64,000 nt of DNA from Trichobilharzia regenti (Eukaryota > Platyhelminthes > Trematoda > Strigeidida > Schistosomatidae), in the NCBI GenBank assembly GCA_944472135.2, contig OX235264.1, positions 87,554,319 to 87,618,318 on the forward strand, written 5' to 3'. Below the pieces are notes generated by a model that saw only the letters and a list, made by a program, of their open reading frames with translations, had not been told where the DNA came from and did no database searches. The position numbers were made by a program, and so were the translations under genes. Numbering within the stretch: position 1 is the first letter of the stretch; each line of letters starts with the position of its first letter. Of this stretch, positions 39,055 to 63,818 are shown in pieces.

Positions 39055-39060
39055 TTTAAT
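39055..39060 (-). terminator. Possible MEG polyadenylation signal
   Basis: attaaa on the minus strand, about 140 nt after the spliced stop codon and 115 nt after the unspliced one. Confidence 0.45.
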
Positions 39061-39197
39061 GAAAAGAAAAACAAGAACAAAAGAAGTCAGAAATAGGTTA
39101 GATTCTTTTTAACTGAAAAGTTTTATAGTTCCTGTTATTCGAAGATTCAAAGTTATGGTTTCAGTTTTATAGTAGTTAGGTCTGGATCAGTGCTTCA

Positions 39198-39206
39198 TCA
39201 CTTAAC
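39198..39206 (-). CDS. MEG possible last coding exon start (VK-stop)
   Basis: Acceptor tttatttcattatttag, then GTTAAG and TGA. If the 116-nt intron 39207-39322 is removed, the protein ends two residues after the 3' exon. Without splicing, the frame runs to TAA at 39176-39178 and adds a hydrophobic Cys-rich tail (VNTVLVYFISTFSYTTCI and more). I cannot decide between them. Confidence 0.45.
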   Translation of the reverse strand, partial: VK

Positions 39207-39322
39207 CTAAATAATGAAATAAAGTATGGAAATTCGTTATTACAAGTATACATACAACTAAGTGGGCATATACAAGTAGTATAAGAGAAGGTACTGATGA
39301 AATATACAAGAACTGTATTTAC

Positions 39323-39380
39323 CATTCTGAGTATTTGAGTGACTGAATCTAATACTGCTGAAGACATTTCACAGTGAACT
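39323..39380 (-). CDS. MEG 3' exon (58 nt)
   Basis: Acceptor tgctaaactcaacag, donor gtaaatac. In the shared phase it encodes VHCEMSSAVLDSVTQILRM, an amphipathic segment. It is the only exon in the set not divisible by three, as expected near the end of the gene. Confidence 0.6.
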
Positions 39381-40019
39381 CTGTTGAGTTTAGCATTTGT
39401 TTACACAGTGCCTTATGTATACTCTTTTATAGGTACTCTGAAATAAATATGTCCTTATTGTTATTACTTCTCAGTTGAACATAATTTTAGTGAAGTCAAT
39501 GAGTTATCCAATCACCTCTCATTTATTTATTGCCTCAACATGTTTTACACCAATATAATTGATGATGAATATATAAGAATAGATGGCTTACTCGGTAATT
39601 CCTTCGAAAGGACTAGTTTGAAGAAGAGAGCAAGAAAATTGTAATAGCTTTGTATTAACGTTACTTTGTTTAGATGAAAATTTATTGGACAGTATGTCTT
39701 TAATTTATTTAAGGATACTCTGCGTCAATCAGGAACTGTTAATCATCGCTCTGTTTTCCTTGGAGACATTTTATAAAACTAAATATATAGGTGAATTTAA
39801 TTTTTAGAATGTTTTCTGAATGCGCCCGATTAGCTTATATGAGACGTCTGTAACTGAAGCACTAAATGATGCCTATTTGGATCTCATAAGGGATATCCGT
39901 TACTTCAAGGTTACAAATACGCCTTGCTGATGAGTGCTAACAAGCACGAAGCCTAAGTCCAGGGCTTCTTGATGATTACTTTCAACCACCTAACACAAAT
40001 CATGTTATATTAGTAGTTC

Positions 40020-40235
40020 AGGGTTACACTGCTGACTAACCACGCATATTCTCGTGGTTCGATTCTCGTTCAGCGTATTCCTAAACCTTTCCTAGCCTGT
40101 GGAAGATCTGGAAAAGAGGGAAGGTTCAGATTGAGGCTAGCGACCTGTAAAAACAACACCGCTATTTAAACTTCAAAGCTTACAACTTGAAGCTCTCTGT
40201 TCCACTCGGAATGTGAAGGAATGAAAAACAAAATG
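40020..40235 (+). mobile_element. tRNA-RTE composite SINE, diverged
   Basis: Within a MEG intron. tRNA-like head with ggttcgattctcg at 40057, body gaggctagcgacctg, tail gaagctctctgttccactcgg and aatgtgaaggaa. Confidence 0.72.
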
Positions 40236-40286
40236 TTTTCTTGATGCGGTTGGTAGAATTTATTTTGTAATCGGTATTAAACTTAC

Positions 40287-40304
40287 AGCATGTAATTCAG
40301 GTTG
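40287..40304 (-). CDS. MEG micro-exon, 18 nt
   Basis: Strong acceptor tactgttttctatgcag, donor gtaagttt. Shared-phase peptide NLNYM plus split codons. A 90-nt exon ending at the same donor is possible (acceptor ttccacag at 40377) but its only open frame does not fit the neighbours. Confidence 0.7.
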
Positions 40305-40634
40305 CTGCATAGAAAACAGTAATGGATTCTCAGTATAAGGTATGTTCTGTAAAATTGTCATAGCTTCTTCAGTTATCTGTGGAAAAGTAGTTTGGTGATG
40401 TTTATGAAGTCTGACATTCATGAAGTACTCTTGATCTGTTAAACTAGGTGAGCACTAAGAATGATCATTTAATGCAGTACAGAATAATTATATCGATGCA
40501 TGAAATAGTTTAGTCAAACAAAGACGTAAGTCACTACTAATTGTTTACTCAGATGTATCAACTTATTATTTTAAGGCGATTTCACATTTTCAGCGTTTTG
40601 TACATACTGTTGCTGTTATTATTAGTAGTATTAT

Positions 40635-40965
40635 TGTTCTCTTGGGTTCCATGTGGAACATAGGGCTTCAACAACACTCCTCCATTTTGCCTCGTGTACT
40701 TCCTTGTGTTTGTACACACTGCCTCGAATCACCGAATCATTGAAGGAGTAGACATCTGATAAGTGTCCTATACAGTCATTAATTTCTCCGAGAGCCTCTC
40801 GACCCATGGAGATCTATTCCCTTATTGTCTGCTCCTATTTCTGCCGGCGTTCATATCGCCAATAAGGATTTCGATGCTGCCATTTGGTATGTTGTCCATT
40901 ACTGTTCACAGTCGTCTATAGAAATCTTTCTTCTTCTTCCTCTCCTGTTCCAAGTTGTTTATAGC
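40635..40965 (-). mobile_element. Internally deleted RTE fragment
   Basis: The minus strand ends with the RTE-like tail gaagccctatgttccacatgg. The rest matches the endonuclease region 38290-38500 of the RTE element (ggcgttcatatcgcc, ctccgagagcctctcgaccc). The whole reverse transcriptase is missing between the two. Confidence 0.65.
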
Positions 40966-41398
40966 ACTACGCATAGCACTGAATAATTCTAACTGTTACC
41001 GCTAGTCATTGAAAAATGTATTTGTAGGTTGTTTATTTGTTTAAATATTTCCCATTTATTCCTGTTTCTAACTTTTTAACATCTGGTTAGTAGATTCCAG
41101 AATTCAGAATCCTTATTTTTCACTTTCATCAATGGTTATCTACTTCATTCATTTTACACTTTCAATTATTAATCTTTTCGTATATATTTCAGTTTTTACG
41201 TGAGAATATTGTTGGAGGTGTTCTGTACCTTAGTACTAATGCAAACCGGACGAAATATCTCCTACAGGTTGAAACAAATTGTATATGAAGCAAAATTTAT
41301 CCCATCTCCATGACTTAAGTTCAAGCTTCTAATACCCTAATAACTTATTGATTTGTAAAATTCGATTTATTTTACTGAGGAGAACAGTCTCCACTTAC

Positions 41399-41419
41399 TC
41401 TTTTACACCTTGATTCCAC
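41399..41419 (-). CDS. MEG micro-exon, 21 nt
   Basis: Acceptor aaaatacctctgcag, donor gtaagtgg. Shared-phase peptide WNQGVK. Confidence 0.75.
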
Positions 41420-41930
41420 CTGCAGAGGTATTTTTAGAATAAAAAATCAATATATTTATCGAGTATTCGTTTGTTTGTTTTCTTTCCTATACCTTTTTAT
41501 TTCCTTGAATAGAATGATTCATATCCTAAAAGTGCTCAAAAATCACATAGTGAAGTTATCCTTAAATTTAATGACATACACTCATCTTGTATTTTATGGT
41601 TTTCAGATATTCAGACCACATGTTAGGAAAACATACATAAAATTATGTTCTTATTGGCACACATCTGCCATTTGTATACTACTTATATGACTGTAAGTAC
41701 AATGGTACTTCTTAAACAGGTTAACTACAGCTGATCAAGTGGAAAGTGTCGGTAAGTCAAGTATCAAACAGTTAGTGAATTGTGATTTGTATCTGCCTAT
41801 GTAAAAGCTGTGAGTTTTCATGCGTTTATAAAAAACTGAAACTTTAATGGCTGAGTATAAAACGAAACTTGAGGACATCACTGTTAGTTGGTATTTTAGA
41901 ATAAACTTTAAATGGATGAAATTTATTCTA

Positions 41931-42090
41931 ATAAAGTCTCATAGTGTTATACAGTAATATTAACTGATGACGTTTCCAGCACAATTTATTGCTCGTAATC
42001 ATATCATCATATCTTGATGTGATTATGAGCAATAAATTGTGCTGGAAACGTCATCAGTAAATATTACTGTATAACACTATGAGACTTTAT
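41931..42090. repeat. Long palindrome with PLE terminal module
   Basis: Arms of about 75 bp (41931-42005 and 42016-42090) differ at about three positions around a 10-nt spacer. Each carries the ctgatgacgtttccagcac module in opposite orientation. The minus-orientation 3' module continues to about 42165. It resembles the inverted terminal repeats of PLE insertions. Confidence 0.85.
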
Positions 42091-42169
42091 CAAAATAACT
42101 TTCGCCCACAATGGAATTATATTCTACTACAGTGCGCGAGTACTATTCTTATATCAAACGATTTATGTT

Positions 42170-42470
42170 CAAGTATTGGTTTGTAGGAATTCGATTGATT
42201 AGTCACAGGATTTTATCATGACCTGACATCTGTTAGAGAACCATTGGAAAACCTGGGAGTACTGCACAACAGTTTCATCCGTTTTAGTTTAGGACTATTA
42301 AGCAGTACGCATCCACCAACAGAGTTCGAACCCAACACCGCCTGAATACAAGGCGAGTTCGTAGACCACTAAACCAATGAGTCACAGACTAGGACTAAAC
42401 AGCTATTCAATGATCTTAGGTTTTCCGATGGTTTTCTAATCGATGTCAGCTAATGATGACATCCTGTAAC
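42170..42470. mobile_element. Inverted pair of hammerhead-SINE pieces
   Basis: 42170-42375 is a minus copy (reversed B box agagttcgaacccaac, then aggcgagttcgtagacc). 42376-42470 is a plus body fragment (ccaatgagtcacagactagg, actaaacagctattc, ggttttccgatgg). Both ribozyme cores are damaged (GAAA is TAAA in the plus piece). Confidence 0.65.
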
Positions 42471-42599
42471 CAAATGTTTTATGCATATGTGCTGATAATC
42501 TGTGGTTAATCAACGAGATTTATTCAGTTCATGTTCTTTTTATTGGTAAATTCAAACTTAGCAATATTAGCAAAATAACCCATAAGTAAATAAACTTAC

Positions 42600-42620
42600 A
42601 TTCTTACTGCAGTCCCCGCT
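42600..42620 (-). CDS. MEG micro-exon, 21 nt
   Basis: Acceptor aatattctgttaaacag with a pyrimidine-rich tract upstream, donor gtaagttt. Shared-phase peptide AGTAVR, similar to HKTALR of the exon at 43752. A longer open frame through the acceptor (to 42781) looks like a membrane protein but is better explained as intron read-through. Confidence 0.75.
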
Positions 42621-43751
42621 CTGTTTAACAGAATATTGAAAGCCGTCATTAAAATGACAATAATGTATGAAAATATGATAAACAAGTTGTTTCCGTCTGT
42701 ATTGGCCATTATGTCAAAGCGTACTAAATTAACATAGTACCAGACCTTTCCGTCAAAACCCATATGCCATTTAGGATTCATATTTATAGACAGTCATATC
42801 GTGGACTGACCAGTTAATTCACCTTCTAGCACAATATGAACAAAATAAGGTCGAAAGAAAGTCTTCTTTTCGTGATGAGATTTTGAAGTCGACGAGCAAA
42901 TATGTATGCTAATGAAACTATTCACTAAGTTTTTATTTGCTCCATAACCACTAGTTTTACAAAGTAATGTATAAGCTTTATGAAATGCTTATATCGGTTA
43001 GCATAATTTTACCCCTTAGCATACGTTAAACATTATATATGACGAAATTTGAAGAAAATACGAGCGATCTGAAGACGAAATGGTTCTTTCATGAAAACTA
43101 GTGTATCAGATTGCAATATAACACATAAATCAACATTTTTTAGTTAAATATTTTATGTAAACAACAAGCAAGCAAGTTACATGACACCGGTTCATACTTG
43201 AATGCAATCTGATTTCAAATGCTAGCAGGACTGAAGTGAAGTTCTGCACTTATCAGCAAAGCATCGATTTCTGATGACAGTATTTCACTACAAGACCTTT
43301 CAAGCAACGGTTGATTTCCTGTATGATCAAATTAGACATGTCAAATCCCATGCAGATGGCAAGTAACGCAGTCGTCAGTAATTAGTTTAAATGAAACGTC
43401 ACTTCCTTGGTGAAAATAGCTCCGTATACAGTAAACAACTCCTGGAGATACTTTTAATACCATCTCAGAAAGTCTATCACTCTGACACCCATGTGTGAAT
43501 TGCTTTTGCTTGGAGTTTAGGTGTGATTTTAACCCGTAAACAAAAGAATTTGTGCCTCAGTCCGTCTACCAAAGCGTCATTTATGAATAGGTATCTGTAC
43601 CATGATGTTTTAAATGAAGCTAGAAATAGTTTGCTAAACTAATAAGTTTCAAGAAATAATAACGCTACACACATGCTCACTAGAGTGTAGCTATTAGATC
43701 TCTAATTGTTCATAGAACACAAATTATTTTCCAAACTTATTAAGAACTCAC

Positions 43752-43772
43752 GCTCTCAGTGCAGTTTTGTGA
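43752..43772 (-). CDS. MEG micro-exon, 21 nt
   Basis: Acceptor ttaaaaatgtttttag, donor gtgagttc. Shared-phase peptide HKTALR. Confidence 0.8.
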
Positions 43773-43879
43773 CTAAAAACATTTTTAAATATTAGATCAA
43801 GTAAATCAGAATGTGATTTCAATTCACTTAAAATGACTTATAATGGTGTAAGGTTCTATCAGTGTCTAGGCTGTGGATA

Positions 43880-44300
43880 TGGTGAACGTCTTGGAAAATC
43901 ATTAGCAGACAGTCTAATTAAATGCGTTTGTTGAACAGTCTAGTTGTTCACTCCATACAGCTTTCTCCACAAGAGCAACTTAATTTGTAGATACATATAA
44001 AAGTGATACAGTTAGGTAGCTTGTCTTTCGCTTCAGCAATCGTGATTGATGGGCAGCTGAAAAATGACAAACAAAGGGCGGTGGTGGCAGTATAAGTCCG
44101 TTTTATTGCTCTCGATAATCTTAGATGTAAGACTTCACTAGCCACGTTCGCATCAACTAGGATAACCGATTTGGACCAGCGTATTTTGGATGTATTCTAA
44201 CTCATTTTCTAGGGAGTTATCTGTATAGATCCATCTTGCTGTATTCGTGAGGCATCTGACCAAAGTGATTTTGTATCAGATTGGTACGAAACCAAGGAAA
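43880..44300 (-). pseudogene. PLE linker and GIY-YIG remnant in a MEG intron
   Basis: Minus frames: LVRCLTNTARWIYTDNSLEN and LEYIQNTLVQIGYPS; LRLSRAIKRTYTATTALCL; AKDKLPNCITFICIYKLSCS and CGESCME, then after a stop TTRLFNKRI. This is the segment linking PLE RT to GIY-YIG with the start of the nuclease. Dead. Confidence 0.72.
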
Positions 44301-44700
44301 TGTGTATATTATCCTGCAGATGTAGGTTTTCTATAGACATCTCTCTTGAGTGAACTATCCTCTCTTCTGCTCAGTTGGACATTGTCATTATAATTATCAT
44401 TATTAATGGCGATCAAAACATTTACCACATTATCATTATTATTATCATTATTATTTGATCGACTAAATCACCGTCATTGGTTAAAATTTTTATGTAAATA
44501 AATCTATGTAAATAAGAGCAAAGCCTGGAGAAGATCTAATTGAAAACAATATTGTTCGATTATGTGTATTTTCTAATATTAATAATGGGAATATTGAAAT
44601 ATTTGAAAAGGCATTTGTGGTAAATACTCTAGAGTTTTAGGTGAATATTTGGTTATTGTACTGTAAGCATTTTGATTTTTGTCTTTTGCTGTGAACTTAC

Positions 44701-44721
44701 ACTGTAAGATAACAATCACAA
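44701..44721 (-). CDS. MEG micro-exon, 21 nt
   Basis: Acceptor attatttctttccag, donor gtaagttc. Shared-phase peptide CDCYLT. The other simple phase has TGA, which helps fix the frame. Confidence 0.85.
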
Positions 44722-45175
44722 CTGGAAAGAAATAATTAATTATTGAATATATCTTGAATATACGAACACTGTTTGAAGGTGTTTCTGAAGCAAGACAACC
44801 TTAGTATCAACACAGACTTTTATTTCGTGTGGGAAAGGTAACTGAAAGGCAATTAATATTTAGACATATTCGATGACCAGTTACAATTTCTCTTCATAAT
44901 GGTATTTTTATAGCTTAAATTTTAAAAATCAGATTTATTGTCTGAATCTGAAGACCATCATGAAATGCATTGTTGGGATGAAATTAATGTGAACAATTTA
45001 GCTAATGTTTACTTATAAAAGTTGGCGCCTACATTTATAGTTTACAGTCTAAACCAGTATATTATTTAATAGTTACTTATCAGTAAAAAAATAAACATAC
45101 ACCAATTCATTATTTTTATCTCGAATTGCTATTCGTTCTATTTCCTTCAGTATAAATGGACATATGACGAGCACC

Positions 45176-45199
45176 TCTTGGAAAGACTTGAGCGTAACA
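45176..45199 (-). pseudogene. Decayed MEG micro-exon (24 nt)
   Basis: Acceptor taccccattttcag followed by 24 nt similar to the exons at 51173 and 49765, but the donor position reads ggtgctcg instead of gtaagt. Reading on gives an open 99-nt frame to a weak donor (gtatgt) at 45099-45100, so an extended exon is an alternative. Confidence 0.5.
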
Positions 45200-45724
45200 C
45201 TGAAAATGGGGTATTTTAATCTCATTAATGTATTTTTCAAAGACTAAATGCACCAGGACTTAACGATAAAGGTTGATCTTCCTTTTGACGCATCATACTT
45301 ACAAAAAGGATGTATATATGTCTATTTATTTTACTATGAAATAAGCATCTAGCTGATAAAAATCTGTGAAAACTTGTCACAGTCATTGTTATATTCTAAC
45401 ACACTTGTTAATTGTTTGATTATTTAAATATGATTATACTCTCAGGAGTTTAATGATCAGCGTAAACGTAAACCATGAATAAAAATAGGTATCTAAGTGA
45501 TTAGGAGGTAAAGTCAAAGCAAGATAAACCAAAGTTTATCAACTGATGGACAATGGACATAAACTGTCGGATTCATCTTCACGAGACCTTATCACCTGAA
45601 CAAGTCAAGCGGTCGACTACATCAGGCTTCTGAAATCCACTCCAAAACGATACTACTCTAATTCCATTGTTCTTTTGGAGGTTATACTATAAAGAAAAAT
45701 GAAATACTTATTGTATTCATTATT

Positions 45725-45735
45725 ATTGCCATTAT
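45725..45735 (-). repeat. PLE target-site duplication, 3' side
   Basis: attgccattat on the plus strand, identical to 48427-48437. Confidence 0.85.
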
Positions 45736-45738
45736 TTT

Positions 45739-45790
45739 GATGTGGTTTTGTTCTCTGAGCTGGATGGTTAGTTTGCGAAGCTTTCATCAC
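45739..45790 (-). repeat. PLE terminal repeat, 3' copy
   Basis: 52 bp nearly identical to 48331-48382; contains ttttgttctctgagctgg and gcgaagctttcatcac. Confidence 0.85.
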
Positions 45791-45791
45791 C

Positions 45792-46490
45792 TTACTGGGT
45801 GACATCTTCAGCGCATACTTCAAATTGAAGTGAGCTTTTAGGTTTCTCCACGAGTTTATTAATCATTCCTCCTGGTGACCTTGGACGTGATTGGTTGTTT
45901 ATGTATGTTTTCACACCTTCTAGGTTACTTGTGTTGGAACTGATTGTTTCTGTGACTTGAACTTTGGCCAATCGTGTGTGAAGTTTCTTTCTTATTGGTT
46001 GATAAATTTTGTCTATCTCGATGTGTCTATTGATTGATGATTCACTGGAATGCCAAGCTTCTAAAAATTCTCTAGCATTCTTGTTATTTCCTTTGTCTAA
46101 TATTTGAACGTTGTCCCAGTCGAATTGATGTCCGTGGTTGTCTGTGTGTAGTGAAATGAGGGAGTGGATATCATGTCTTTTGACGGCTAGCTTATGTTCG
46201 TGGATACGAAGACGAAGGGGACGTCCACTTTGGCCAATGTAGTGTTTTTCGCAGTTGTTACAGTTTATTTTGTAGATGATGTTGGTTTTGTCTTCTTTTG
46301 CTGTTGAGTCTTTTGGTTGACATAGAATTGAGTGCAGCGACTTTGTTGGTTTGTGTACGACGTCAATTCCTAAAGGTTTGAAGAGTCTTGTAGTGATTTC
46401 TGAGATATCCTTTATATATGGTAAGGCGATTTTCTTTGTGTTTTCCTTGGTGGCTTTTGTTTTGGTAGGTTGGCTTGGGGGTATATGTCT
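45792..46490 (-). pseudogene. PLE-A GIY-YIG endonuclease part of the ORF
   Basis: Open from the frameshift to the stop at 45792-45794. It encodes DISEITTRLFKPLGIDVVH, a CNNC zinc-binding pair, HYIGQSGRPLRLRIHEHK (GIY-YIG motif), HSLISLHTDNHGHQFDW and REFLEAWHSS. No internal stop. It would be fused to the reverse transcriptase but for one missing base near 46505. Confidence 0.9.
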
Positions 46491-48379
46491 CTTGATGAAA
46501 TTCCGGGATATCCATTCTTTTGGAAGACGTCCATGAGATACTTTTCTTCAATTTTTCTTAAGGTGGGAGTGCTGCAGTGAGTCCTTGCTCTCTTGAATAG
46601 TGTTTGTATGCAGTTCCTTTTGTGTGCTATTGGGTTGTTGCTGTTGTAATTCAGTATTTGGTCTGTGTGAGTTGATTTCCTATAAACTTGAGTTTCTAAT
46701 TCTCCTGTAGTTGTTCGCCTGACTAAGACGTCCAAAAATGGTATTTTGTTCTCGGATTCCTCTTCTCTTGTGAATTTGATGTCGTTGAAGACGTTGTTTA
46801 TTAAGTTGTGAGTTTTGTCTAATTCGTTTCTTTTGATTATTACAAATGTGTCGTCGACGTAGCGTATCCAAATCTTGGGTTTGATCTTTGGTAGAATTAT
46901 GTTTTCGAGTCTTTGCATCACTGCTTCTGCAATCAAACCTGATATTGGCGATCCCATGGGTGTTCCTTTGACTTGTTCATATATTTGGCCGTTGAATTGG
47001 AAGTATGTTGTTAGGCATAGATTTATGCATTCCATCCAGCTTGTGTGTTGCATTTTTGATTGTTGTGGAAGTTGTTCGTCGTTGCTAAGTAATTGCTCCA
47101 TGGTTTCTTTTGCTAGTTTTTGTCCGATAGAGGTATATAATGCTGTCACGTCGAAGGATACCATTATTTCTTGTTCATCTATTTGGATGTTTCTGATTTT
47201 CTCTAGGAATTGGATAGCAGAGTTGATGGAGTGATCACAGGATTCCGTTAGGTGTTTTAGTTTTCTGTATAATTCCTTGGACAAATTATATGTTGGAGTT
47301 CCTGGGAGTGATACAATTGGTCGTAACGGGATATTTGCCTTGTGTATTTTGGGTCTGCCGTAGAATCGAGGTAGGACTGGTCCATTGGATTTCATTCGCC
47401 ATTGGTCTTGTTTTGTGATCTGTCCAGTTTTGCTGAGCTTGTTTAAGGTCCTTTGGATGCGGTTGTCCAATGTTTGTATGGGATTTGTTGGGAGTTGTTG
47501 ATATACATCTTCATCTTTGAGTAGTTCTTCAGCTTTCTTGGTGTATTCTTCTCTGTCCATGACTACTGTTGTTCTTCCTTTGTCGGCTGGTAAAATGACG
47601 ATGTCCTTCCTATTTTTCAGCTTTTTGAGGGCCTTTAGTTCTTGAGAGTTGAGTTGTGTGTGTTGTCTTTTCTGTTTGACCATTGGTACAATTGTTTGGC
47701 GTATCTCTTCCTGTGTTTCCTCGTTCAAGTTTGATGATTTGAGTAATGATTCAAGGGCAGCGAAGAAATCAGTTTTTGAAGCATCTCCGGTGTTGTAGTT
47801 TAATCCTTTTTGTAGTAGTTGTTGTTCCATTTTTGATAGTGGTTGTTTTGATAGGTTGACTACGCAGTCTATGGGCGTATTGTCTGGTTGTTGTTTTCTA
47901 ATCTTGGCTAGCTTGGTTTTGAGGACTCTTCGTCTTTGTTCTCTGTGTTTTCCACTTGACAGTGTAATTGCGGTGATCAGCGTTGACAGGTGTTCTTGGT
48001 TGAGGGTTTTCTCTAATTTTGCTTTTTGGACATCTATTATTTGTTGATATTTGTTGATCCGATAATGTGCGTCCGTAATCATTAATTTGACCATTCGTCT
48101 TCCACATTGTTCGGCCAATTTCCATCCCATTGGGCAGTTGACTGGTGGCTTGTATCTTACACTGTTTGGTAGGATTGAATGACGAAGGCACTCATGGAGA
48201 AAGAATAATTGTTCTCTGGTGGATCCTTGCCTTTTGGCGAAGTCTTCCCACTTTCGAACAGAGAGAAGCGTATCCCGCTCGTAAGATTTAGATATGATAG
48301 AGAAGATTTGTAGCTCAGGTGGATAATTTTGATGTGGTTTTGTTCTCTGAGCTGGATAGTTAGTTTGCGAAGCTTTCAT
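46412..48379 (-). pseudogene. PLE-A reverse transcriptase ORF
   Basis: A frame of about 655 codons from an ATG at 48377-48379; it is open a few codons further upstream, through the leader, without another ATG. Residue numbers count from that upstream GTG. N-terminal FLHECLRHSILPNSV (66-80); ILPADKGR (268-275); FYGRPKIHK (345-353); SFDVTALYTSI (414-424, catalytic Asp 416); GTPMGSPISG (478-487); RYVDDTF (512-518, the two catalytic Asp); FLDVLVRR (554-561). All catalytic residues are present. Compared with the 5 kb copy, one base is missing near 46505, so the last ~30 residues are out of frame and the nuclease is separated. Confidence 0.92.
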
Positions 48380-48426
48380 CACATCAAAATTATCCACCTG
48401 AGCTACAAATCTTCTCTATCATATCT
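48290..48426. repeat. 47-bp perfect inverted leader at the PLE 5' end
   Basis: 48290-48336 and 48380-48426 are exact reverse complements (47 of 47), with a 43-bp loop that is the terminal repeat. One arm is the start of the element's own 5' region, so the leader is an inverted copy placed in front of the terminal repeat. A 20-nt piece of the same leader starts the truncated copy at 5057. Confidence 0.92.
48331..48382 (-). repeat. PLE terminal repeat, 5' copy
   Basis: 52 bp, one mismatch to 45739-45790. Confidence 0.85.
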
Positions 48427-48437: not shown

Positions 48438-48445
48438 GTCCAGTA

Positions 48446-48449: not shown

Positions 48450-48803
48450 TGTGGTGAGAGCTGGCTGCAAGTCAAAATTGTAGGCAACAGTTTTCATCGA
48501 CGTTCACGACCCTAATCAGGGTCATGTGAAAGAGAATAACAAAGCTTAACCTTGAGAAAATCACCAATAAATCACAGCGGAGTTTAAGGATGGAAATATG
48601 ATTCGCAGACATACAGCTTGATTTTCCGAGAAACGGCCACAAAGAGATAACAGAAGAAGAAGAAGACAAGAAGACAACTAGTCAGGAGAAACTGCTTCTC
48701 GGCTAACAATAACACTAATAATAATGCACATAAAAATCTATAAATTTCTCTTGATTTTATCAATAAACGATCACTTGCCTGGCCCTTGTGTTCTTTTATT
48801 ACA
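48450..48803 (+). mobile_element. Solo LTR (gypsy-type), copy 2
   Basis: TG...CA ends (tgtggtgagagctggctg ... cttttattaca), 4-bp direct repeat atat on both sides (5 bp with the preceding A). Related to 31844-32155. It is followed by unique sequence, so no internal part remains. It lies 12 bp from the PLE TSD. Confidence 0.72.
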
Positions 48804-49425: not shown

Positions 49426-49446
49426 ATTTGGCTTTTAAAAAGCTGT
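49426..49446 (-). CDS. MEG micro-exon, 21 nt
   Basis: Acceptor caaataattttgcag, donor gtaagtat. Shared-phase peptide QLFKSQ. TAA blocks the zero phase. Confidence 0.85.
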
Positions 49447-49559: not shown

Positions 49560-49870
49560 ATCGACTTTAATAAGTCATTATTGTTATTCACTGGTACTGG
49601 TGATTTCATGAGTTTATACATTACACAATACTATTCATAATGAATTTTCTGCCTTAAAATTAAACAGTTACAAGAGAAAATATCCATGTAGATGGTTTTC
49701 TCTCTTCTTACAAAAATTAATGACACGTCTTTCTGGTTAAATATACAATATAATTAGTACTTACTTTTTTAAATATTCGGTCGTAATACTGAAAATTGAA
49801 AGTTAACCATTTGAAATGAGACTCATTTAGATTCTATGATTATTAACCACAAATATAAATTTATGAGGAC
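49560..49870. repeat. Duplicated exon-bearing segment, copy 1
   Basis: Diverged direct repeat of 50690-51300. Shared blocks: ttatacattacaca, aaacagttacaa/aaacagttacac, and the 24-nt micro-exon with flanks (acttac ... actgaaaattga). Confidence 0.65.
49765..49788 (-). CDS. MEG micro-exon, 24 nt
   Basis: Acceptor aactttcaattttcag, donor gtaagtac. Shared-phase peptide ITTEYLK. It and its flanks are a diverged duplicate of the exon at 51173. Confidence 0.88.
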
Positions 49871-50829: not shown

Positions 50830-51110
50830 CGCTATTTCGACAACTGACAGAAGTTAGAATTCATGGACTGGTCATTGGATCGGGTCTCACTGGGTTAACG
50901 GTCTACGAGCTCGCCTTGTAAGCAGAAGGTCCTGGGTTCGAAACTTTCCGGTGGGTGGGAACTGAGGAAGAGTCGCAAACCAGGACATAGAAAACAGCAG
51001 TTCAGTACTTTCAGGTGGTTTCCAAATGGTTCTCTAACCGATGTCAGCTCTTGGTGAAATCCTGTAGCCAATTAACTAAGTCTCTACAAACCAATACTAG
51101 AATATATCGA
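50830..51110 (+). mobile_element. Hammerhead-SINE in a MEG intron
   Basis: tRNA-like head with gtctacgagctcgccttgta and B box ggtcctgggttcgaaac, then gaggaagagtcgcaaacc, aggacatagaaaacagcag, ccaaatggttctctaaccg and a tail with gtctctacaaacc. The ribozyme core has extra bases before GAAA and is probably inactive. Confidence 0.75.
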
Positions 51111-51172: not shown

Positions 51173-51196
51173 TTGGCGGTAAAAGGCGTTTGTACA
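51173..51196 (-). CDS. MEG micro-exon, 24 nt
   Basis: Acceptor caactctcaattttcag, donor gtaagtat. Shared-phase peptide VQTPFTA. Same length, acceptor and donor context as the exon at 49765. Confidence 0.88.
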
Positions 51197-52542: not shown

Positions 52543-52563
52543 TATTTGCCTGGATCGAAACCG
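52543..52563 (-). CDS. MEG micro-exon, 21 nt
   Basis: Donor gtaagtgc is strong; acceptor atttttatgaaatgaag is weaker. Shared-phase peptide GFDPGK. A 7-nt exon from the acceptor tttcgatccag is the alternative, but it breaks the frame. Confidence 0.6.
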
Positions 52564-53411: not shown

Positions 53412-53432
53412 GTGTTATTCTCAGATGGTTCC
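53412..53432 (-). CDS. MEG micro-exon, 21 nt
   Basis: Donor gtaagttc; acceptor ccactaacattaaag is weak. Shared-phase peptide EPSENN. TGA blocks the zero phase. Confidence 0.6.
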
Positions 53433-54735: not shown

Positions 54736-54750
54736 TGTGTTTCTATTTCA
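54736..54750 (-). CDS. MEG micro-exon, 15 nt
   Basis: Very strong acceptor ttgaccttttcttcacag, donor gtaagaac. Shared-phase peptide EIET. TGA blocks the zero phase. Confidence 0.82.
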
Positions 54751-55723: not shown

Positions 55724-55744
55724 TCCAAGTGGTGACCAGCTCCT
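55724..55744 (-). CDS. MEG micro-exon, 21 nt
   Basis: Acceptor cctactctcttgcag, donor gtgagtta. Shared-phase peptide GAGHHL. Confidence 0.78.
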
Positions 55745-57108
55745 CTGCAAGAGAGTAGGTAAAAGCTTCACTTATTAAAAGATATTTTAGACGAATTCAC
55801 CATTCACTTACTCCACACAAGATCACTATCAAGTATGTTTGTCAAACAGCGAAATTAGCCTAACCAATAGCTCAGTTCTTAAGCACCATGTTCCTACACA
55901 TTTTTCTGCGTTATTGTGGGGGTCTTCCAAATTGACGTGTGATTTATGCATTCAAAGTTATTCCAGCTACATCTTCTCTGTACAGTGAAAACTGTCAATA
56001 CGAACGTGATTTATCTCCGGTCTTTCACTACTGCTTTCTTAAACATTTGTTAGACTTGTTTTACAACATATTACTTTTTTAAACTCTTATCTTAAAAATA
56101 TACTTTTTATATATTCTGAATCTCTTAGTTTTATCGGCGGCATTCCATCTCCTGAGAGCTTACAGTTTCGATAATAGCCATTTCTGAGAGCCATTCATCA
56201 CTTACTGTTTTAAGCCGCGTAAAATAACACAACCGAAGTTCAGAATTTACCGGTTTTCATCCAGTTATTTAACTGGATATGTTCTATTACTGGTGAACAT
56301 TATTACTCATCCTGTACAGATATTTTCTGTGAACACTTAAAAAACATTTTTTTTATTATATAGCTTTGATAAAAAATTATGAAAAGAATATTTTCTGCTG
56401 ACCTATTGTTGCAAAATAATTGATCTGGAAACCTCTCCTGAACAACCTGTTTACAATATTCAAACTTATTTTGAATATTTCAAATAGTTTTGTAATCACT
56501 ACCTTCTACCCATGATCTGTGTATCGTCGCTGTAATATTTTCATGTTTCCTTCGTACCAAAGAATACGAAGTTACCATTTAGTCATGTGTAGGAATAAAT
56601 TAATTAGCCATGACATGTATTTATTCCACTTGGTGTATCCGTGAAGCTGACACTGTCTTCAGTAACATCAGTAGCTGTGAGCATAATACTTTTCTGTCAA
56701 AATAGTCCTTACTTGGAAAATGGACAGGAAAGAAGTGGACGCAAAAGAACATTATAATTTGGCGATCCTTCATTATTCAGTAACTCAGACACATTTTGCA
56801 TTGATGAGTTGAGCATGTTTGCTATATTAAAACAAAGATGTTGACATCTCATACGTTTTATACAGGAGGATGACGATCTTCTGAAGTGTTTTTAAATAAA
56901 ATTAAAGGATTTCATGATAAATTAGTTTACATTTTACTGGAAAGGTCCATCCTGATCTCTTTAGTAACAAGATCTTTGATCTTTTTGTCGTGAAAAATTT
57001 CAAGATAATATGATTAGAACTATGTTTAAGAAATTCATTTTTCTTCTTAATGAAAAAATCTTGAAAATAGGTGTTATGGTTCATCTGTAAGAGTGCGCTT
57101 AAAAATAC

Positions 57109-57126
57109 ACTGTAATCTCAATGCTT
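57109..57126 (-). CDS. Candidate MEG micro-exon, 18 nt
   Basis: Acceptor gatgcagacattacag, donor gtattttt (weaker). Shared-phase peptide SIEIT; the zero phase has TGA. Not counted in the core set because of the donor. Confidence 0.45.
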
Positions 57127-57235
57127 CTGTAATGTCTGCATCATAACAGAAGATATACATGAATAAGCCAAGATGATCAACAAAAAATTTCCTATTAATT
57201 GATTCTCAAAGATTATCTCTCGCAAAATACATTAC

Positions 57236-57244
57236 GGCGTACCT
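57236..57244 (-). CDS. Candidate MEG micro-exon, 9 nt
   Basis: Acceptor attatttgaacgtag, donor gtaatgta. Shared-phase peptide GT. Not counted in the core set. Confidence 0.35.
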
Positions 57245-57808
57245 CTACGTTCAAATAATTCGATGGTAAATTCAGTATGAGCAAGGTGCTTCTATCCATC
57301 ATGAATACATTTCGTAGTTGTTCCAACAGTTCCGCGTAATATAATGCTTAACATTTACATTACTGTAAGAGTATATAACAGTTTTATTTTTTGAAAGCTG
57401 TTTTGTCTATTTGAAGTTTTATGAGGCTTGAAGAAAACCTTTAGGGTTTGAATGAACCCAAATCAATAAATATCATTCTTTCGACTTTTTTTTCACATCT
57501 TCAAATTAATCTACATAAACTGCAACCAAATTCTATTAAAATAATCAGTATCTTATGGAGAGAATAGCTTTTAAACTATTAATTTCTGGCATTTATCCAC
57601 AGAACAGCAACTTGAACATAATTTCATTTTATTGAGACATTTTTCCGGTCACATAGTTTATAAAATTTGTTGTGTGTTTTAGATAAGAAGTAAGGTAACC
57701 AAATAAATAGTTTCTTCATCCCGCAGATTATCATTTTAAGGTATTATCACTGGAATCTAGTTTTTGTAGCTCGATATGAAACAAAAGTGAAGGCATCTCG
57801 GTGATTAC

Positions 57809-57826
57809 AAAAATGTAAAGTTAGTC
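57809..57826 (-). CDS. Candidate MEG micro-exon, 18 nt
   Basis: Acceptor acaatgtaacattttag, donor gtaatcac. Shared-phase peptide TNFTF; the zero phase has TAA. Not counted in the core set. Confidence 0.45.
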
Positions 57827-57976
57827 CTAAAATGTTACATTGTTCAATCGCTTTAACGTTAACCGGCTATTTATTATTGACAACATACTATTCGTTCCTA
57901 ATGACGTTGATTAGTTTTATCTTCTAAAATAATGCAATATGAGAAACATACAGTCTAAAGTATTCAAACAACTTAC

Positions 57977-57994
57977 GATTGAACCGTAATCTTT
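57977..57994 (-). CDS. MEG micro-exon, 18 nt
   Basis: Very strong acceptor gctttttatcttttacag, donor gtaagttg. Shared-phase peptide KITVQ. Confidence 0.88.
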
Positions 57995-58489
57995 CTGTAA
58001 AAGATAAAAAGCATTCTTTACAGTCTCATATTTAAAGGAGAAATAAAGTTAGACTATAAAGTGTGAACATTCGTCTCACACATTTGTTTTTACAGACAAG
58101 TGTTGCTGGTCTTTAGTATCAATACACTCTGGTGCCAAAATGTGGCAGCCAATGTATAAAATGATCGTTAGAAATATTGGGATAGTCGTATTTACTCTAG
58201 AAAAAACTATCCTGTTTAGTCTTAGAATTCGATCATATGATATCGAATTACCGATATATATAACAGACGGATATTAGAATTGATGGAACCCAAAAATCTG
58301 TGTCAACTGTGAAGCACAGTCAACACAGTAAATGATCACTTCAGATAGTGGGTGAAACTTAATCATCAAGTCTAAAATATACCAAGGAGTTTTAAAAGTC
58401 ATTCTATCTTTTGAAAATCAACCAGAAATAAGTATTTCACGGAATATACACATTGGATCATAGGAATTATAAAAAATGGGTTGCAGTGA

Positions 58490-58545
58490 AGAAAATTTCC
58501 TTTTCGACGAAGTCATCAGCTAGGCTGTACATTTAAGTATTTATA
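58490..58545 (-). repeat. PLE terminal-module fragment
   Basis: Plus strand ccttttcgacgaagtcatca, gctaggctgtac, the reverse of the module at 30990-31035. Confidence 0.4.
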
Positions 58546-58696
58546 TTACATGTGTGAGAATTTTCCAGAATTATTTCCGGTCAGAGGTCAGAATAAAAAG
58601 ATCACTAAGTGTAATAAACAGCCGATTTGTTCTTTTTTTCATTCATTCTAAAGTTTTTCGGGATTTTTCACCTTTAGGTTGTTTAGTGAGAATTTT

Positions 58697-58890
58697 TTAA
58701 TTCATTTCAATCTGGATGGAACATAGGGCCTTAAGCTTTTTAAATTTCATTAGCCGTGGTGTTATTTCTTACAGGGTGAGGTTTCTAGCCCCACACCCAA
58801 CCTTTCTTCTATTGACATGCCTATCACCAACTAGTAAACTAGGCGAGGTTTAGCAGAGTGTCTACCACGAGTCGAATTTGTACCATTTAG
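58697..58890 (-). mobile_element. Old tRNA-RTE composite SINE
   Basis: Diverged minus copy: ggaacatagggccttaagc, cagggtgaggtttctagcc, and a remnant head with ccacgagtcgaatttgtacc. Confidence 0.6.
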
Positions 58891-59128
58891 TAAGAAATAA
58901 ATTCTAGAAATATGTGTTAACTACCAGAAACGAAATCACTTTACAGCTTTGTGACTGATGCATCGTTAAGTAAATCTAACAGAGAAAACATTACATAAGT
59001 GAACTTTGTATATGTGGCTATATGAACGGCACTGAGTGGAGTGGAAATGAAAAAAACACTTTTAATGATATAATTTTGCAAATTTATCTTATAATATAGT
59101 GACATATATATAAATATAATCAACTTAC

Positions 59129-59134
59129 ATTTTC
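59129..59134 (-). CDS. MEG micro-exon, 6 nt
   Basis: Exon GAAAAT between acceptor tccaatttttgtttag and donor gtaagttg. It adds one whole codon (Lys) plus split codons. Six nucleotides is at the lower limit known for this gene class. Confidence 0.75.
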
Positions 59135-59518
59135 CTAAACAAAAATTGGATAAATATATGCTTGACTATTAACATTTTTTCAGTGTTTTAGTGCAAACTC
59201 TTTAATTCTTATACCCATAGCAGCACCGTTCGGCAAATTTAACTAGTATGTCTGGGCATGCCATATTTATGTACTTGCTTGTATAGGTATTTTCCAGATG
59301 ATGGTATGTATTCTTGATTGTGTGGAATACTCTAGATTTTTCATAGAATTTACTTGGTTTTCTCTAGCTGCCATAGGTACTGTAAATCAAAAGTAAAAAG
59401 GGAAACCTGTTTCCTGTTTTGTCGACATAAATCCTCAGAGTGTAAAGTGCTAACTTTGTTCGACACGTTACCTGAAAATGAATTAAACAGAATGCTAATA
59501 ATCCAAAATAATACTTAC

Positions 59519-59527
59519 TTTTCTTCC
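59519..59527 (-). CDS. MEG micro-exon, 9 nt
   Basis: Exon GGAAGAAAA between acceptor cacttattctgttttag and donor gtaagtat. Shared-phase peptide EE plus split codons. Confidence 0.8.
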
Positions 59528-59699
59528 CTAAAACAGAATAAGTGATATCTTAGGTGTTACAGTAATTAGGTACTCCATGATAATATCACACACAGCATAG
59601 CACTTATGATTATCAGCATTTATTGCGATTTGAATTTCCATGTAATTTCAAATTTTATTTCCCTGCTCATGAAAAATGCTCATCAGTATATTAGAGGAG

Positions 59700-59770
59700 A
59701 ATTAAGAATTTCAGCAAAGATATCTTTCCGGCGATTTCAAATGTGCTTTCTGAACTCCTTGTATCCTCTC
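59700..59770 (-). repeat. PLE terminal-module fragment
   Basis: Plus strand caaagatatctttccggcga, tttcaaatgtgctttctg resembles the left arm of the inverted repeat at 28845. Confidence 0.4.
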
Positions 59771-59933
59771 TAATTATATATTTACACATATTCAAAAGAG
59801 TCGCTAAAGTGGCATTATTCTTAGCAAGGCATTTTACCGTATATATTACATTGGTTGCATCATTGGAGTGAATGTCAATTTTGAATTCTACGAAAACAGA
59901 AACTGTGATTGATCACATAAAAGTCATTTTCAC

Positions 59934-59948
59934 CTTATCATATTTTCA
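59934..59948 (-). CDS. Candidate MEG micro-exon, 15 nt
   Basis: Acceptor cacagggttgtttag, donor gtgaaaat (weaker). Shared-phase peptide ENMI. Not counted in the core set. Confidence 0.4.
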
Positions 59949-60204
59949 CTAAACAACCCTGTGATAGATAATATTCTCATGACAAATTGCCTTAGTATAA
60001 AACTTATTTACAGAGAGCCAATTGAAATTCCATTACTTTTTTTTCTGTCAGATGAAACCAGTGAACTAGAGAGTGAATACACAAACAAATACTTCTGAAA
60101 GTTATGTAAATAACTTGTAACCAAGCTGAGAAAAGTTTTTTCCCACTTCATAATATGGTTAAATAAAGGTATAATTATGAGACACATAATACTTAGCACA
60201 TATG

Positions 60205-61160
60205 AAACAAATAGGACAAGGCTGCCTACTATGTCCAGTGACTTTTCTGATTGCGGTAGACTGGATAATGTGACGGAAAGTAGGCCGGGCAGTGAGGAAA
60301 CACCTATAAAATGGACCCTCTTTCACAAAACACTTGGAGGATCTGGACTTCGCCGATGATGTTATGTCTCTGATTTATCACAAACTTGAATATATGCAGA
60401 TGAAAAGCAACAAGTCGGCAGAAGCAACATCCAGAGAAGATAGTACTTCACTTCAGGTGAACATAGAGAAAACAGAGGTGATGAAGATTCCTGGCCAAAA
60501 GCAACAGCATCTGCAACAACAACAGAAAACAATCAGCATAAAGGGAAGAAATCTGGAAGAAGCAGCCTCCCTTACCTACCGACCTGGGTTGCATCGTTTC
60601 AACAACAGGCGGACAAAACTGATAGTGGATGTCAAAGCGAGGATCGGGAAAGCAAGGTAAGCTTTCATTTCTCTCAAGTCTGTGTGGAGATCAGCAGCAG
60701 TCAGGATGAAATAGAAGAAGTGGATTTTCAACTCCAATGTAAAGTCAGTGTTACTATACGGATCAGAGACTTGGCGCCGCGTCACAAAGGGCAGTTCAAA
60801 CAAATTACAGACCTTTGTCAATAGCTGTCTTCACTCAATACTCAAGATAAGATGGCCAGAAAAGATCAGCAGTGGTGGCGAATTTCTGGAAGCGAACCAA
60901 CTCAACAGGAACCAAATGTGCAACAAAAATACAGGAAGAGATGGAGGTGGATTGGCCATATTCTCAGAAATCCATCAAGTGACATCACACCACAGTGCAT
61001 CGCTTGAGTGGGAACAACATGGAGGAGGTCACGTGAAGAGGAGGTGAAGGCATGTGGGTATACATGGAGCCAGGTGGAAGCCTTGGCAGAGAACCGAATG
61101 CGCTGGAGACTTGCTTCTGAAGCCAAGTGTTCCTCTAGGAATTAAAGGAAACAGTAATTT
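60205..61160 (+). mobile_element. 5'-truncated RTE LINE in a MEG intron
   Basis: Plus frames: a GQGCLLCP-type block, HLEDLDFADDVMSLIYHK (catalytic FADD present), LQVNIEKTEVMKIPGQ, RNLEEAASLTYRPGLHRF (60334-60660), then MLLYGSETWRR, NKLQTFVNSCLHSILKIRW (60748-61047), and the 3' end ttcctctaggaattaaagg. Frameshifts near 60660 and 61050 inactivate it. It lies antisense to the MEG. Confidence 0.88.
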
Positions 61161-61234
61161 GACTTATTATGGGAGGAATATCACCTCTATATTTTATTTC
61201 ATTATGCATATTTGTCTCGAGAAAGCAAACTTAC

Positions 61235-61255
61235 GTAGGACCCGTAAAGATTTTC
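61235..61255 (-). CDS. MEG micro-exon, 21 nt
   Basis: Acceptor gatgtattcatttag, donor gtaagttt. Shared-phase peptide KIFTGP. It lies 75 nt beyond the RTE insertion. Confidence 0.85.
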
Positions 61256-61700
61256 CTAAATGAATACATCGAAAAAATCAAATGTTCTTTGCTCCCCGTA
61301 TTAAAAATTTCAAACTTCAATATAGTTTTATGATGGTTAGGAGGCCGAGTTCAAAACTGGATCGCAGTAATATACAAACCAGCATGATTCGGAATATTAG
61401 TTCGGTATTTTACTAAATGAGCTACAGGACATGGTTTGCAGCTGTGTTGGTTTCTGTCCTACGGAGATCAAAGTTTAAATTAACCTTCTCAGAAATAATT
61501 TATTTTGATTATCAAATAATTAAACTAAATGAAAAATCCAAATCACGATTGTTTTTAATTGAACTGCTCCCATTAAAAAGACAGATCAAGGTTAACAGAA
61601 CCATTTTCGTATGACTCATTTATATAGGGATTTTAATTAAGCACAATTATTGAAAAGTCTGTGAAAGTTTTTCATTTTACGTTATAGCACATTTACTTAC

Positions 61701-61721
61701 ACAGGAGTAACACAAACGTTT
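61701..61721 (-). CDS. MEG micro-exon, 21 nt
   Basis: Acceptor tttggttatgttttag, donor gtaagtaa. Shared-phase peptide NVCVTP. Confidence 0.87.
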
Positions 61722-62373
61722 CTAAAACATAACCAAACAATACAGAGCATTAGTTTCACTCAAAGTTTATAAATCTCTAAATATCCAGAGAACGCCATTA
61801 TAACTGTTAAGACGACAAATAACCATAGTAATAACTATTGGTGAATTATTATACTAGTTGGGATAAGTAACAACCAGAAAGATTATTTTGAGAAAAATAC
61901 TTTAATAAGTGCGAGTGAGAGAAATTCTATTATAAGTAGTGTTTAACGAAATTTATCATATTGCCTTAAGAACGGTTTGTTGTTGGATGTCTTCGGAAAA
62001 TCAACCAACCATAAATGTTGAAAATTCTTTTTTACATCAAAATAACAAGTAGAGTTATGCAGCTAATTTTTTCCAAGAGTGCCGTTAAATTCTTTCCACT
62101 ATTCTGTCTCCCACGTAAGTTCTTTTTTCTGTTAATGTAAATATTTATCATATATTCCCTCAGCCTTAGTAATGTACATGTGAGACAAAACAAAACTTCG
62201 TTGTATTCTTTGCACTTATTGATACTATTGCTCACTGACTTGGTCACTCTTCACTCAATAGCAAGTGCTGAATTCTCTAATGGGAGTGTTATATTTGAAA
62301 TACCATACATGTAACTCTGTATATTTTGACATCACTACATAAAATAACTAGAGTTAAACCATTGTTTGCTTAC

Positions 62374-62397
62374 CTTCTCGGTGGGATAAGTTTTCCT
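62374..62397 (-). CDS. MEG micro-exon, 24 nt
   Basis: Acceptor ttgcctaatgaaacag, donor gtaagcaa. Shared-phase peptide GKLIPPR. Confidence 0.72.
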
Positions 62398-62582
62398 CTG
62401 TTTCATTAGGCAATTTTTATAAAGAACGATAAGCAATTAATATTTAAATTGTCAACATCAATATATTATGCCTAACTGTTACTACAGCTGCAAACTACAA
62501 AGCTTGAAATACATGTCTACTTTCGTCTAATGACTGCATAAACAACAGTTATACTTAGTTTTAATGACTTAAATAAACTTAC

Positions 62583-62603
62583 ACGTCTACCTGTAGATCC
62601 CAA
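62583..62603 (-). CDS. MEG micro-exon, 21 nt
   Basis: Acceptor gaattctcattttgtag, donor gtaagttt. Shared-phase peptide WDLQVD. Most 5' exon that I place with confidence. Confidence 0.85.
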
Positions 62604-62699
62604 CTACAAAATGAGAATTCCAAAAACATAAGTCATCATTAAATTTAATCTATGCAAGTACTTTTTGATAGCTTCAGGGAGTAAAATATTGTCTGAAAC

Positions 62700-62870
62700 A
62701 GTATACTTAATGTACATGATGTCTGAATATGTGGTACTAAACTTGATAACGTATGTGTAAAACTTCAACAGTGTGGTAGTATGTAATTCCATATTAGTAT
62801 GTTTATTGGCTTTACAACACAGTGAAACATCATGGATAACATCTCGAACACAGTTTATCATTTATAATCA
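62700..62870 (-). repeat. PLE 3'-terminal module
   Basis: The plus strand has acagtgtggtagtatgtaat and cacagtgaaacatcatgg, similar to 1850-1945. It follows the coding fragment at 62870-63330 on the minus strand. Confidence 0.5.
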
Positions 62871-63330
62871 TATCAGTTGTAAGTGCCCAACTTCAAAGCT
62901 CAAGGTTATTTTTTTACTTCTTTTCATTCTTTTCAGTTTTTAGTAGCGAGAGTGGAGTTTACCAAGACTTTGAGACATTCTCATTTCACGCGCTGCAAGG
63001 TGATTTCATGAATAAGGCTTCAATTATCAGTTTCTCACACCACCATGTTATATTCAATTTTAAGGCTGTCAGTTTGTCCCATTCCATTGTACAGTTATAT
63101 GCAACTGTATTTAAAGCTACAGCTGAAGGTTATTTTTTCAGATTTTTATTTCATTAGGGTCCAGTATTCTAAATTTTACAAAGCTTTTAAGCTGCGCTAA
63201 TCTATTTGAACCTAGCTTACTACTATGACCTGTGTATTTGACTTTACAGCCATTGAAGGGTATGAAATGAGCTAAATTGTTTTGTTTAATTGGCTTCACA
63301 TGATCTTTTAAATGACACAATTTGTTTCTT
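62870..63330 (-). pseudogene. PLE GIY-YIG remnant in a MEG intron
   Basis: Minus frame CKVKYTGHSSKLGSNRLAQL and FVKFRILDPNEIKI, then broken frames. It corresponds to the GIY-YIG core (VYVGETSRQ region of the 16.66 kb copy) and belongs to the same family as 1724-2340 (shared LDPNEI/VDPNKI). Dead. Confidence 0.6.
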
Positions 63331-63797
63331 AAATGAGTTCGTGGGTTAAAATGTCACTTTTATTCCTAATTAATTTAAAATCCTTCGTACGATTTACAAG
63401 GTTGTCTTTTTGTATGGCAGGACTATTGGTGTTCTAAATTCCTTATACTTGGCGTCGTCGTCTTTCTCTGCATTCACCTAAAAAGTTTGACCATTACAGA
63501 ATCTGTGGAAATAGTTCACACTTAAAACTACTGTTTCACATCAATTTTATTTTACTGAGGGAATTTTAGAAATGCAGTTGATTTTTAGCTGCTTTGTGTT
63601 AAAGTTTTTATATAATAGTCTTTGTTGCATAGTTTTAAGAATATTAATAATTCAGCAATTCGCTTTCATATGAAATGTATCATAAAAGCTTACAGGTGTT
63701 CCAATAAATGTTTTCTGTAAATACAAGCGTTGTTTAAATAATCAAACAAGGATATATTACTTTCATACGCATATTCATTCATAAATGTGACGGTTAC

Positions 63798-63818
63798 CAA
63801 TTATCTAGTTTTCCATAG
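63798..63818 (-). CDS. Candidate MEG micro-exon, 21 nt
   Basis: Acceptor catcacacatacacag, donor gtaaccgt. Shared-phase peptide YGKLDN; the zero phase has TAA. It joins the next exon without a stop, but the donor is weaker than average. Confidence 0.5.

Follow-up and report, generated by a model that had tools for sequence, protein, structure and literature searches.

The minus strand of a 64,000-nucleotide (nt) stretch of the Trichobilharzia regenti genome (contig OX235264.1 of assembly GCA_944472135.2, positions 87,554,319 to 87,618,318; this whole stretch is called the window) probably holds one gene with 41 predicted coding exons over 49.5 kb, encoding a likely secreted protein of up to 295 residues that would vary by exon skipping. 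The gene is real, and it adds a new and exceptionally large member to the micro-exon genes (MEGs) known from schistosomes. It had been assigned to this class in an original prediction that covered positions 39055 to 63818, and the assignment held: this is a schistosomatid gene built almost wholly of symmetric micro-exons behind a signal-peptide-like first exon. All 19 predicted micro-exons, from 63714-63694 down to 39612-39592 on the minus strand, were reproduced and joined open at offset 1 (phase-2 introns), their 369 nt giving the predicted 123 codons, and the terminal exon from 39437 continued in the same phase for seven codons before a stop. The zero phase, described as closed in four of these exons, was closed in 3 of the 19, and offset 2 was closed in several.

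The extent of the gene had to be revised. Sequence beyond the window was taken over 40 kb, starting 1 kb inside the window end, and the exon series continued upstream there. Positions in this region are given in extended coordinates, that is, window numbering run on past 64000; the contig position is that number plus 87,554,318. The upstream limit of the gene was 88927, 24.9 kb past the window end, and its true size is about twice that originally given. The exon previously placed at the 5' boundary, 63818, is not an exon of A0AA85KIS2, an uncharacterised T. regenti protein of 294 amino acids (aa), and joining it to the next exon would create a TGA. Two exons inside the original interval (53432-53412 and 52563-52543), both with weak acceptors, had been overlooked. 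Coding sequence accounts for 888 nt of the completed model and introns for 48,627 nt, the whole covering 49,515 nt.

Evidence for the exon series and its product

Splice sites were scored with generic matrices, which were drawn up when the exons had already been viewed, although without fitting to them. Candidates were the locally best-scoring pairs of acceptor and donor with a spacing of 3-36 nt, selected blind to length modulo three and to frame. The plus strand of the same stretch, 20 first-order Markov sequences for 39-85 kb, and 300 Markov sequences for the last 10 kb served as controls. At a threshold of 11, the minus strand of 39-85 kb yielded 96 candidates, including 55 multiples of three and 18 of the 19 originally predicted exons; 62397-62374 scored too low for this list. 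Recovery by a length-blind scan makes immaterial the earlier worry that the choice of acceptor had favoured multiples of three. Raising the score to at least 13 left 59 candidates, with 38 multiples of three and 19 of exactly 21 nt, compared with 38, 10, and 1 on the plus strand and 20.3, 6.95, and 0.7 (21-nt maximum 4) in the Markov sequences. At a score of at least 15, 19 of 22 candidates were multiples of three, and offset 1 was open in all 19, whereas the other frames were open in 12 and 11; the plus strand gave 12 candidates with one multiple of three, and the Markov means were 5.25 and 2.05, respectively.

Before any homolog was known, a first exon chain was picked by hand from these scans using the shared phase, and its 258-aa translation was then used as the protein-search query. 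This draft matched A0AA85KIS2 (E = 6e-122) and an unnamed 206-aa protein of T. szidati (E = 9e-71) that is 72% identical to A0AA85KIS2. The borders required by A0AA85KIS2 were present in 28 of the 30 chain exons at or upstream of 49446, indicating that most of the 41-exon gene was readable from raw DNA by splice pattern alone. The other two were 63818, a false exon removed ahead of the protein search, and an exon with a wrong start at 85062; the latter, guessed as the first exon (85062-84992), was dropped in that role, as exon 3 really starts at 85012 and exon 1 at 88927. A0AA85KIS2 supplied exons 1, 2, 16, 30, and 31 to the hand-made chain. The completed model is identical to A0AA85KIS2 over the first 248 residues (exons 1-34), although for residues 247 and 248 the agreement is fortuitous, since each model completes them from a different exon. 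Thirteen of the 19 originally predicted micro-exons fit exactly into this protein. The gene, described as hidden, was therefore so only in part: exons 1-34 were already contained in A0AA85KIS2, whereas micro-exons 35-40 and terminal exon 41 were in no protein found.

The T. szidati protein contains counterparts of exons 1-24 and 27-29, with exons 11, 14, and 15 identical. It lacks exons 25 and 26, the gap coinciding with their borders, and it terminates at the exon 29 border (...LTK), where K takes the place of the split codon. This missing pair is the sole hint of exon-skipping diversification; it could reflect skipping, but equally an incomplete gene model or the loss of both exons in T. szidati. 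Single micro-exons are short enough to arise randomly, and splice-like motifs aligned by chance might thus suggest a gene where there is none. The scan statistics relative to the controls, the exon borders of A0AA85KIS2, and the T. szidati exon matches all oppose this explanation; it is refuted by the matches to proteins of two species, and its probability is practically negligible.

Exon 1 encodes MISKITVVCLLAIFSLQIAASKQENA, which by eye has a signal-peptide-like N-terminus. In the predicted protein there are five N-glycosylation sequons and seven cysteines, of which one falls within the signal-peptide-like region. The 258-aa draft, which was made without exons 1, 2, 16, 30, and 31, matched no Pfam family at E <= 10, and a PDB sequence search with it gave a single match at E = 0.79, attributable to chance. 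Secretion of the product is likely, and a role at the host interface may be proposed by analogy with other MEGs.

Three protein searches returned only the two Trichobilharzia proteins (2 of 812, 2 of 108, and 0 of 3 candidates) and no relative outside this genus; these searches required shared 5-residue words, and remote kinship could escape them. A genome search with the T. szidati protein, to which micro-exons are invisible, returned exon 1 of this same gene (E = 0.02) and, apart from that, a single weak match (E = 1.4). As for paralogs, 601 bases that include exons 5 and 6 were single-copy in the genome, and of 1001 bases around exons 21 and 22 only a part outside these exons (query 37-276) recurred. 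No report of this gene was found in a literature search. Within the searches made, the gene is thus an undescribed member of its class, as had been suggested: no relative outside Trichobilharzia, no Pfam family for the draft, and none of the six published MEG motifs was found. As two Trichobilharzia species have the protein and the searches showed it nowhere else, it may act at the host interface and be specific to the bird schistosome lineage.

Intron phase, exon skipping, and read-through

Among the 39 internal exons, 21 nt was the dominant length (24 exons), followed by 24 nt (six), 18 nt (four), 15 nt (two), and 19, 9, and 6 nt (one each); 38 of the 39 are multiples of three (6-24 nt). The introns range from 154 to 4704 nt. 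Intron 1 is in phase 1 and the remaining 39 are all in phase 2, the 19-nt exon 2 being responsible for the change. Because the later introns all split the codon after its second base, exons 3-40 can be skipped in any combination without a frameshift. No single-exon skip among exons 4-40 (0 of 37) made a stop at the new junction, and only 4 of the 741 exon pairs among exons 3-41 did so, every one involving exon 31. Donors were GTAAGT (30), GTGAGT (5), GTAAGC (4), and GTAAGA (1), and acceptors were CAG (20), TAG (14), and AAG (5). Near-perfect donors (30 of 40 being GTAAGT) would offset exons that are too short for exon-wise recognition and often have weak acceptors. Hexamer enrichment in the exon flanks gave AT-rich words only and nothing convincing. 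Exons 32 and 33 sit in duplicated blocks that include their intron flanks (70% identity over 161 columns and 65% over 173 columns); a third copy near 45.2 kb was sought, and no alignment was obtained at E <= 0.01.

These features might also belong to an ordinary constitutive gene whose micro-exons arose by intron gain or exon duplication and are all always used, so that isoforms are immaterial. Counterparts of exons 1-24 and 27-29 are present in both species, T. szidati retains 59 of 71 residues in exons 8-17 and 25 of 43 in exons 19-24, and no isoform was seen. On the other hand, skipping demands just what is seen here, one intron phase throughout and a length divisible by three in 38 of 39 internal exons, and the T. 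szidati protein omits one pair of exons precisely. A constitutive gene is therefore considered unlikely, and exon skipping may occur in living worms. The model supplies exact junctions for RNA studies.

Phase 0 or phase 1 would keep the frame equally well, and the uniform phase 2 thus yields a testable idea of why one phase might be preferred by such introns. A phase-2 intron that begins with GTRAG reads NNG TRA, giving one residue and then a stop. When the 40 introns were read through, 38 gave one residue followed by a stop, the intron after exon 31 gave an immediate stop, and intron 1 (phase 1) was open for 42 codons. Such a pattern would point to strict surveillance or else to alternative C-termini. 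In the latter case, each micro-exon would be a cassette that could also serve as the last exon, and intron retention or intronic polyadenylation would generate, besides skipping, a ladder of secreted proteins trimmed at exon borders; we regard this as a speculative proposal with a slim chance of being correct. The end of the T. szidati protein at exon 29 would fit a read-through product, and it would fit a truncated gene model too.

The 3' end of the gene and other features

Exons 35-41 likely represent the true end of the gene and are predicted from the scan (Table 1). In the last 10 kb, all six candidates at a threshold of 11.5 were multiples of three and open, and as many open ones were found in 0 of 300 Markov sequences. 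The corresponding values at higher thresholds were 5 of 5 at 13 (1 of 300 Markov sequences), 3 of 3 at 14 (1 of 300), and 2 of 2 at 16 (2 of 300). Five of the six candidates were 21 nt long, compared with a Markov mean of 0.14. The argument for this 3' end depends on how large a fraction of the candidates are open multiples of three and on how many are 21 nt long.

Alternatively, the gene could end as A0AA85KIS2 does, with exon 34 joined to 48616-48472 and exons 35-41 being chance matches or relics. The public protein ends there, and an open frame of 46 codons follows. This tail, however, lies within a dispersed repeat, of which 39 further copies with 79-82% identity were scored out of 3352 first-look candidates; its acceptor is AAG after GGAAAATC; and exons 35-40 obey the rule of the gene in 6 of 6 cases. 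The 48472-48616 tail is probably an annotation error or an alternative end, and we judge it quite improbable that the gene stops there in place of exons 35-41. The public protein thus seems to stop before the true end of the gene.

Several observations weigh against the 41-exon model and its class assignment. A0AA85KIS2 leaves the chain after exon 34 and ends instead at 48616-48472. In the last 10 kb the minus strand yields six candidates in all at 11.5, in line with the Markov mean of 5.62; only the proportion of open multiples of three is raised, and the threshold of 11.5 equals what the weakest exon scores. On the plus strand, this 10 kb contained six open multiples of three among 17 candidates at 11.5, none of them 21 nt, and one among eight at 13. 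The acceptors of exons 16, 30, and 31 are poor (scores of -3.5, -0.1, and -0.4), although their donors are perfect. A0AA85KIS2 must derive from the genome of the same species and is therefore not independent of the DNA. The structure model of the protein was uninformative (mean pLDDT 34), and the searches did not link its sequence to any of the numbered MEG families.

Table 1. Positions of the exons of the completed model and of associated features (window coordinates unless marked as extended or contig)
Feature	Position	Strand	Length and residues	Basis or remark
Exons 1-19	contig 87643245-87618667	-		Upstream of the window
Exon 1	88927-88849 (extended)	-	79 coding nt	From A0AA85KIS2
Exon 2	86243-86225 (extended)	-	19 nt	From A0AA85KIS2
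Exon 3	starts 85012 (extended)	-
Exon 16	68968-68948 (extended)	-		From A0AA85KIS2; poor acceptor, perfect donor
Exon 20	63694..63714	-	21 nt, KHLLEHL	Scan and A0AA85KIS2, residues identical; first micro-exon of the gene within the window
Exon 21	62583..62603	-	21 nt, WDLQVDV	Scan and A0AA85KIS2
Exon 22	62374..62397	-	24 nt, GKLIPPRR	A0AA85KIS2; weak acceptor, not in scan list
Exon 23	61701..61721	-	21 nt, NVCVTPV	Scan and A0AA85KIS2
Exon 24	61235..61255	-	21 nt, KIFTGPT	Scan and A0AA85KIS2
Exon 25	59519..59527	-	9 nt, EEK	Scan and completed model; not in T. szidati protein
Exon 26	59129..59134	-	6 nt, KI	Scan and completed model; not in T. szidati protein
Exon 27	57977..57994	-	18 nt, KITVQS	Scan and A0AA85KIS2
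Exon 28	55724..55744	-	21 nt, GAGHHLD	Scan and A0AA85KIS2
Exon 29	54736..54750	-	15 nt, EIETQ	Scan; T. szidati protein stops at matching border
Exon 30	53412..53432	-	21 nt, EPSENNT	From A0AA85KIS2; AAG acceptor; overlooked originally
Exon 31	52543..52563	-	21 nt, GFDPGKY	From A0AA85KIS2; AAG acceptor; overlooked originally
Exon 32	51173..51196	-	24 nt, VQTPFTAN	A0AA85KIS2; duplicate of exon 33 with flanking intron
Exon 33	49765..49788	-	24 nt, ITTEYLKK	A0AA85KIS2; duplicate of exon 32
Exon 34	49426..49446	-	21 nt, QLFKSQI	Final exon in common with A0AA85KIS2
Exon 35	44701..44721	-	21 nt, CDCYLTV	Predicted (scan); in no protein found
Exon 36	43752..43772	-	21 nt, HKTALRA	Predicted (scan)
Exon 37	42600..42620	-	21 nt, AGTAVRM	Predicted (scan)
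Exon 38	41399..41419	-	21 nt, WNQGVKD	Predicted (scan)
Exon 39	40287..40304	-	18 nt, NLNYML	Predicted (scan)
Exon 40	39592..39612	-	21 nt, PFEGITE	Predicted (scan)
Exon 41, terminal	39055..39437	-	VPIKEYT-stop at 39437-39413	Predicted; predicted 3' untranslated region (UTR) down to the end of the original interval
Terminal exon implied by A0AA85KIS2	48472..48616	-	46-residue tail	In high-copy dispersed repeat
Reverse-transcriptase element	45731..48382	-	60-nt direct end repeats (97%)	Inside intron 34, beside 48616-48472

The reverse-transcriptase element in intron 34 carries an RVT_1 domain (E = 4e-10) in a stop-to-stop open reading frame (ORF) at 46412-48415; its second ORF, at 45792-46547, had no Pfam match. 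A repeat with 71-80% identity was observed at three sites inside the gene span (50913-51102 in the window, with relatives at 74116-74303 and 85273-85570 in extended numbering). The minus strand of 36000-38900, shortly past the 3' end of the gene, contains a likely retroelement relic, its kind judged by eye, with 36 stops in one frame; a 155-aa open piece of it had no Pfam match. Elsewhere in the window, a type I hammerhead ribozyme was detected at 23812-23856 on the minus strand (Rfam RF00163, 45.6 bits), and two stop-to-stop open frames on the plus strand, 5183-6070 (295 aa) and 16660-17331 (223 aa), had no Pfam match.

Comparison with known systems

MEGs are described as having a 5' exon that encodes a signal peptide and a coding part made up mostly of symmetric micro-exons (PMC4671649, PMC5825161, PMC10526429, PMC4350168), for which a range of 6-36 nt is given (PMC5825161). 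In the present gene, 784 of 888 coding nt lie in internal exons of 6-24 nt, the last seven exons being predicted, and a signal-peptide-like sequence, judged by eye, lies in exon 1. By this structural definition, the gene fits the schistosome MEG class. Members of the class are further characterised by longer exons at both ends, by protein variants that arise from micro-exon skipping, and by a secreted or exposed product that is expressed in glands or epithelia. Exon 1 of the present gene has at least 79 nt, and the terminal exon would have about 380 nt if it ends at the limit originally given; the reading frame would permit skipping.

Like MEG-1 to MEG-32 of Schistosoma mansoni, the gene has a signal-peptide-like 5' exon, central symmetric micro-exons, and long introns, and it likewise contains a transposable element and duplicated exons. 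For the S. mansoni set, PMC10526429 gives 10-20 exons, with 15 nt as the prevailing length, and a maximum of 189 residues per protein, whereas here there are 41 coding exons, mainly of 21 nt, and 295 aa; the size is thus far above that described for S. mansoni MEGs. No sequence similarity to the latter was found, and the conserved motifs published for two MEG clades (patterns from PMC10526429) gave 0 of 6 matches in the 295-aa model. Relatives of MEG-4, MEG-8/9, and MEG-26 have been reported from T. regenti itself (PMC5825161) and share both species and class with the present gene. They are described there as found through similarity to Schistosoma MEGs, whereas the present protein has no relative outside Trichobilharzia among the proteins searched.

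Similar in exon number is S. mansoni VAL-6, which is described as having 38 coding exons, a venom-allergen-like domain together with MEG-like micro-exons in part of the gene, and several isoforms (PMC4015677, PMC4350168). In the present gene the whole protein, and not a part of it, comes from micro-exons, and neither SCP/TAPS nor any other Pfam domain was matched by the 258-aa draft. Despite the similar exon number and the MEG-like part, it is thus very improbable that the gene is a relative of VAL-6.

The stops created by the phase-2 donors also have a described counterpart in yeast, where donors that create an in-frame stop upon intron retention have been linked to decay of unspliced RNA (PMC2911113). 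As in the present gene, retention of phase-2 introns beginning with GTGAGT or GTAAGT in Yarrowia lipolytica gives an in-frame stop. In that account the pattern concerns about a fifth of the introns of Y. lipolytica and is linked to RNA decay, whereas here it extends over 39 consecutive introns of one gene model.

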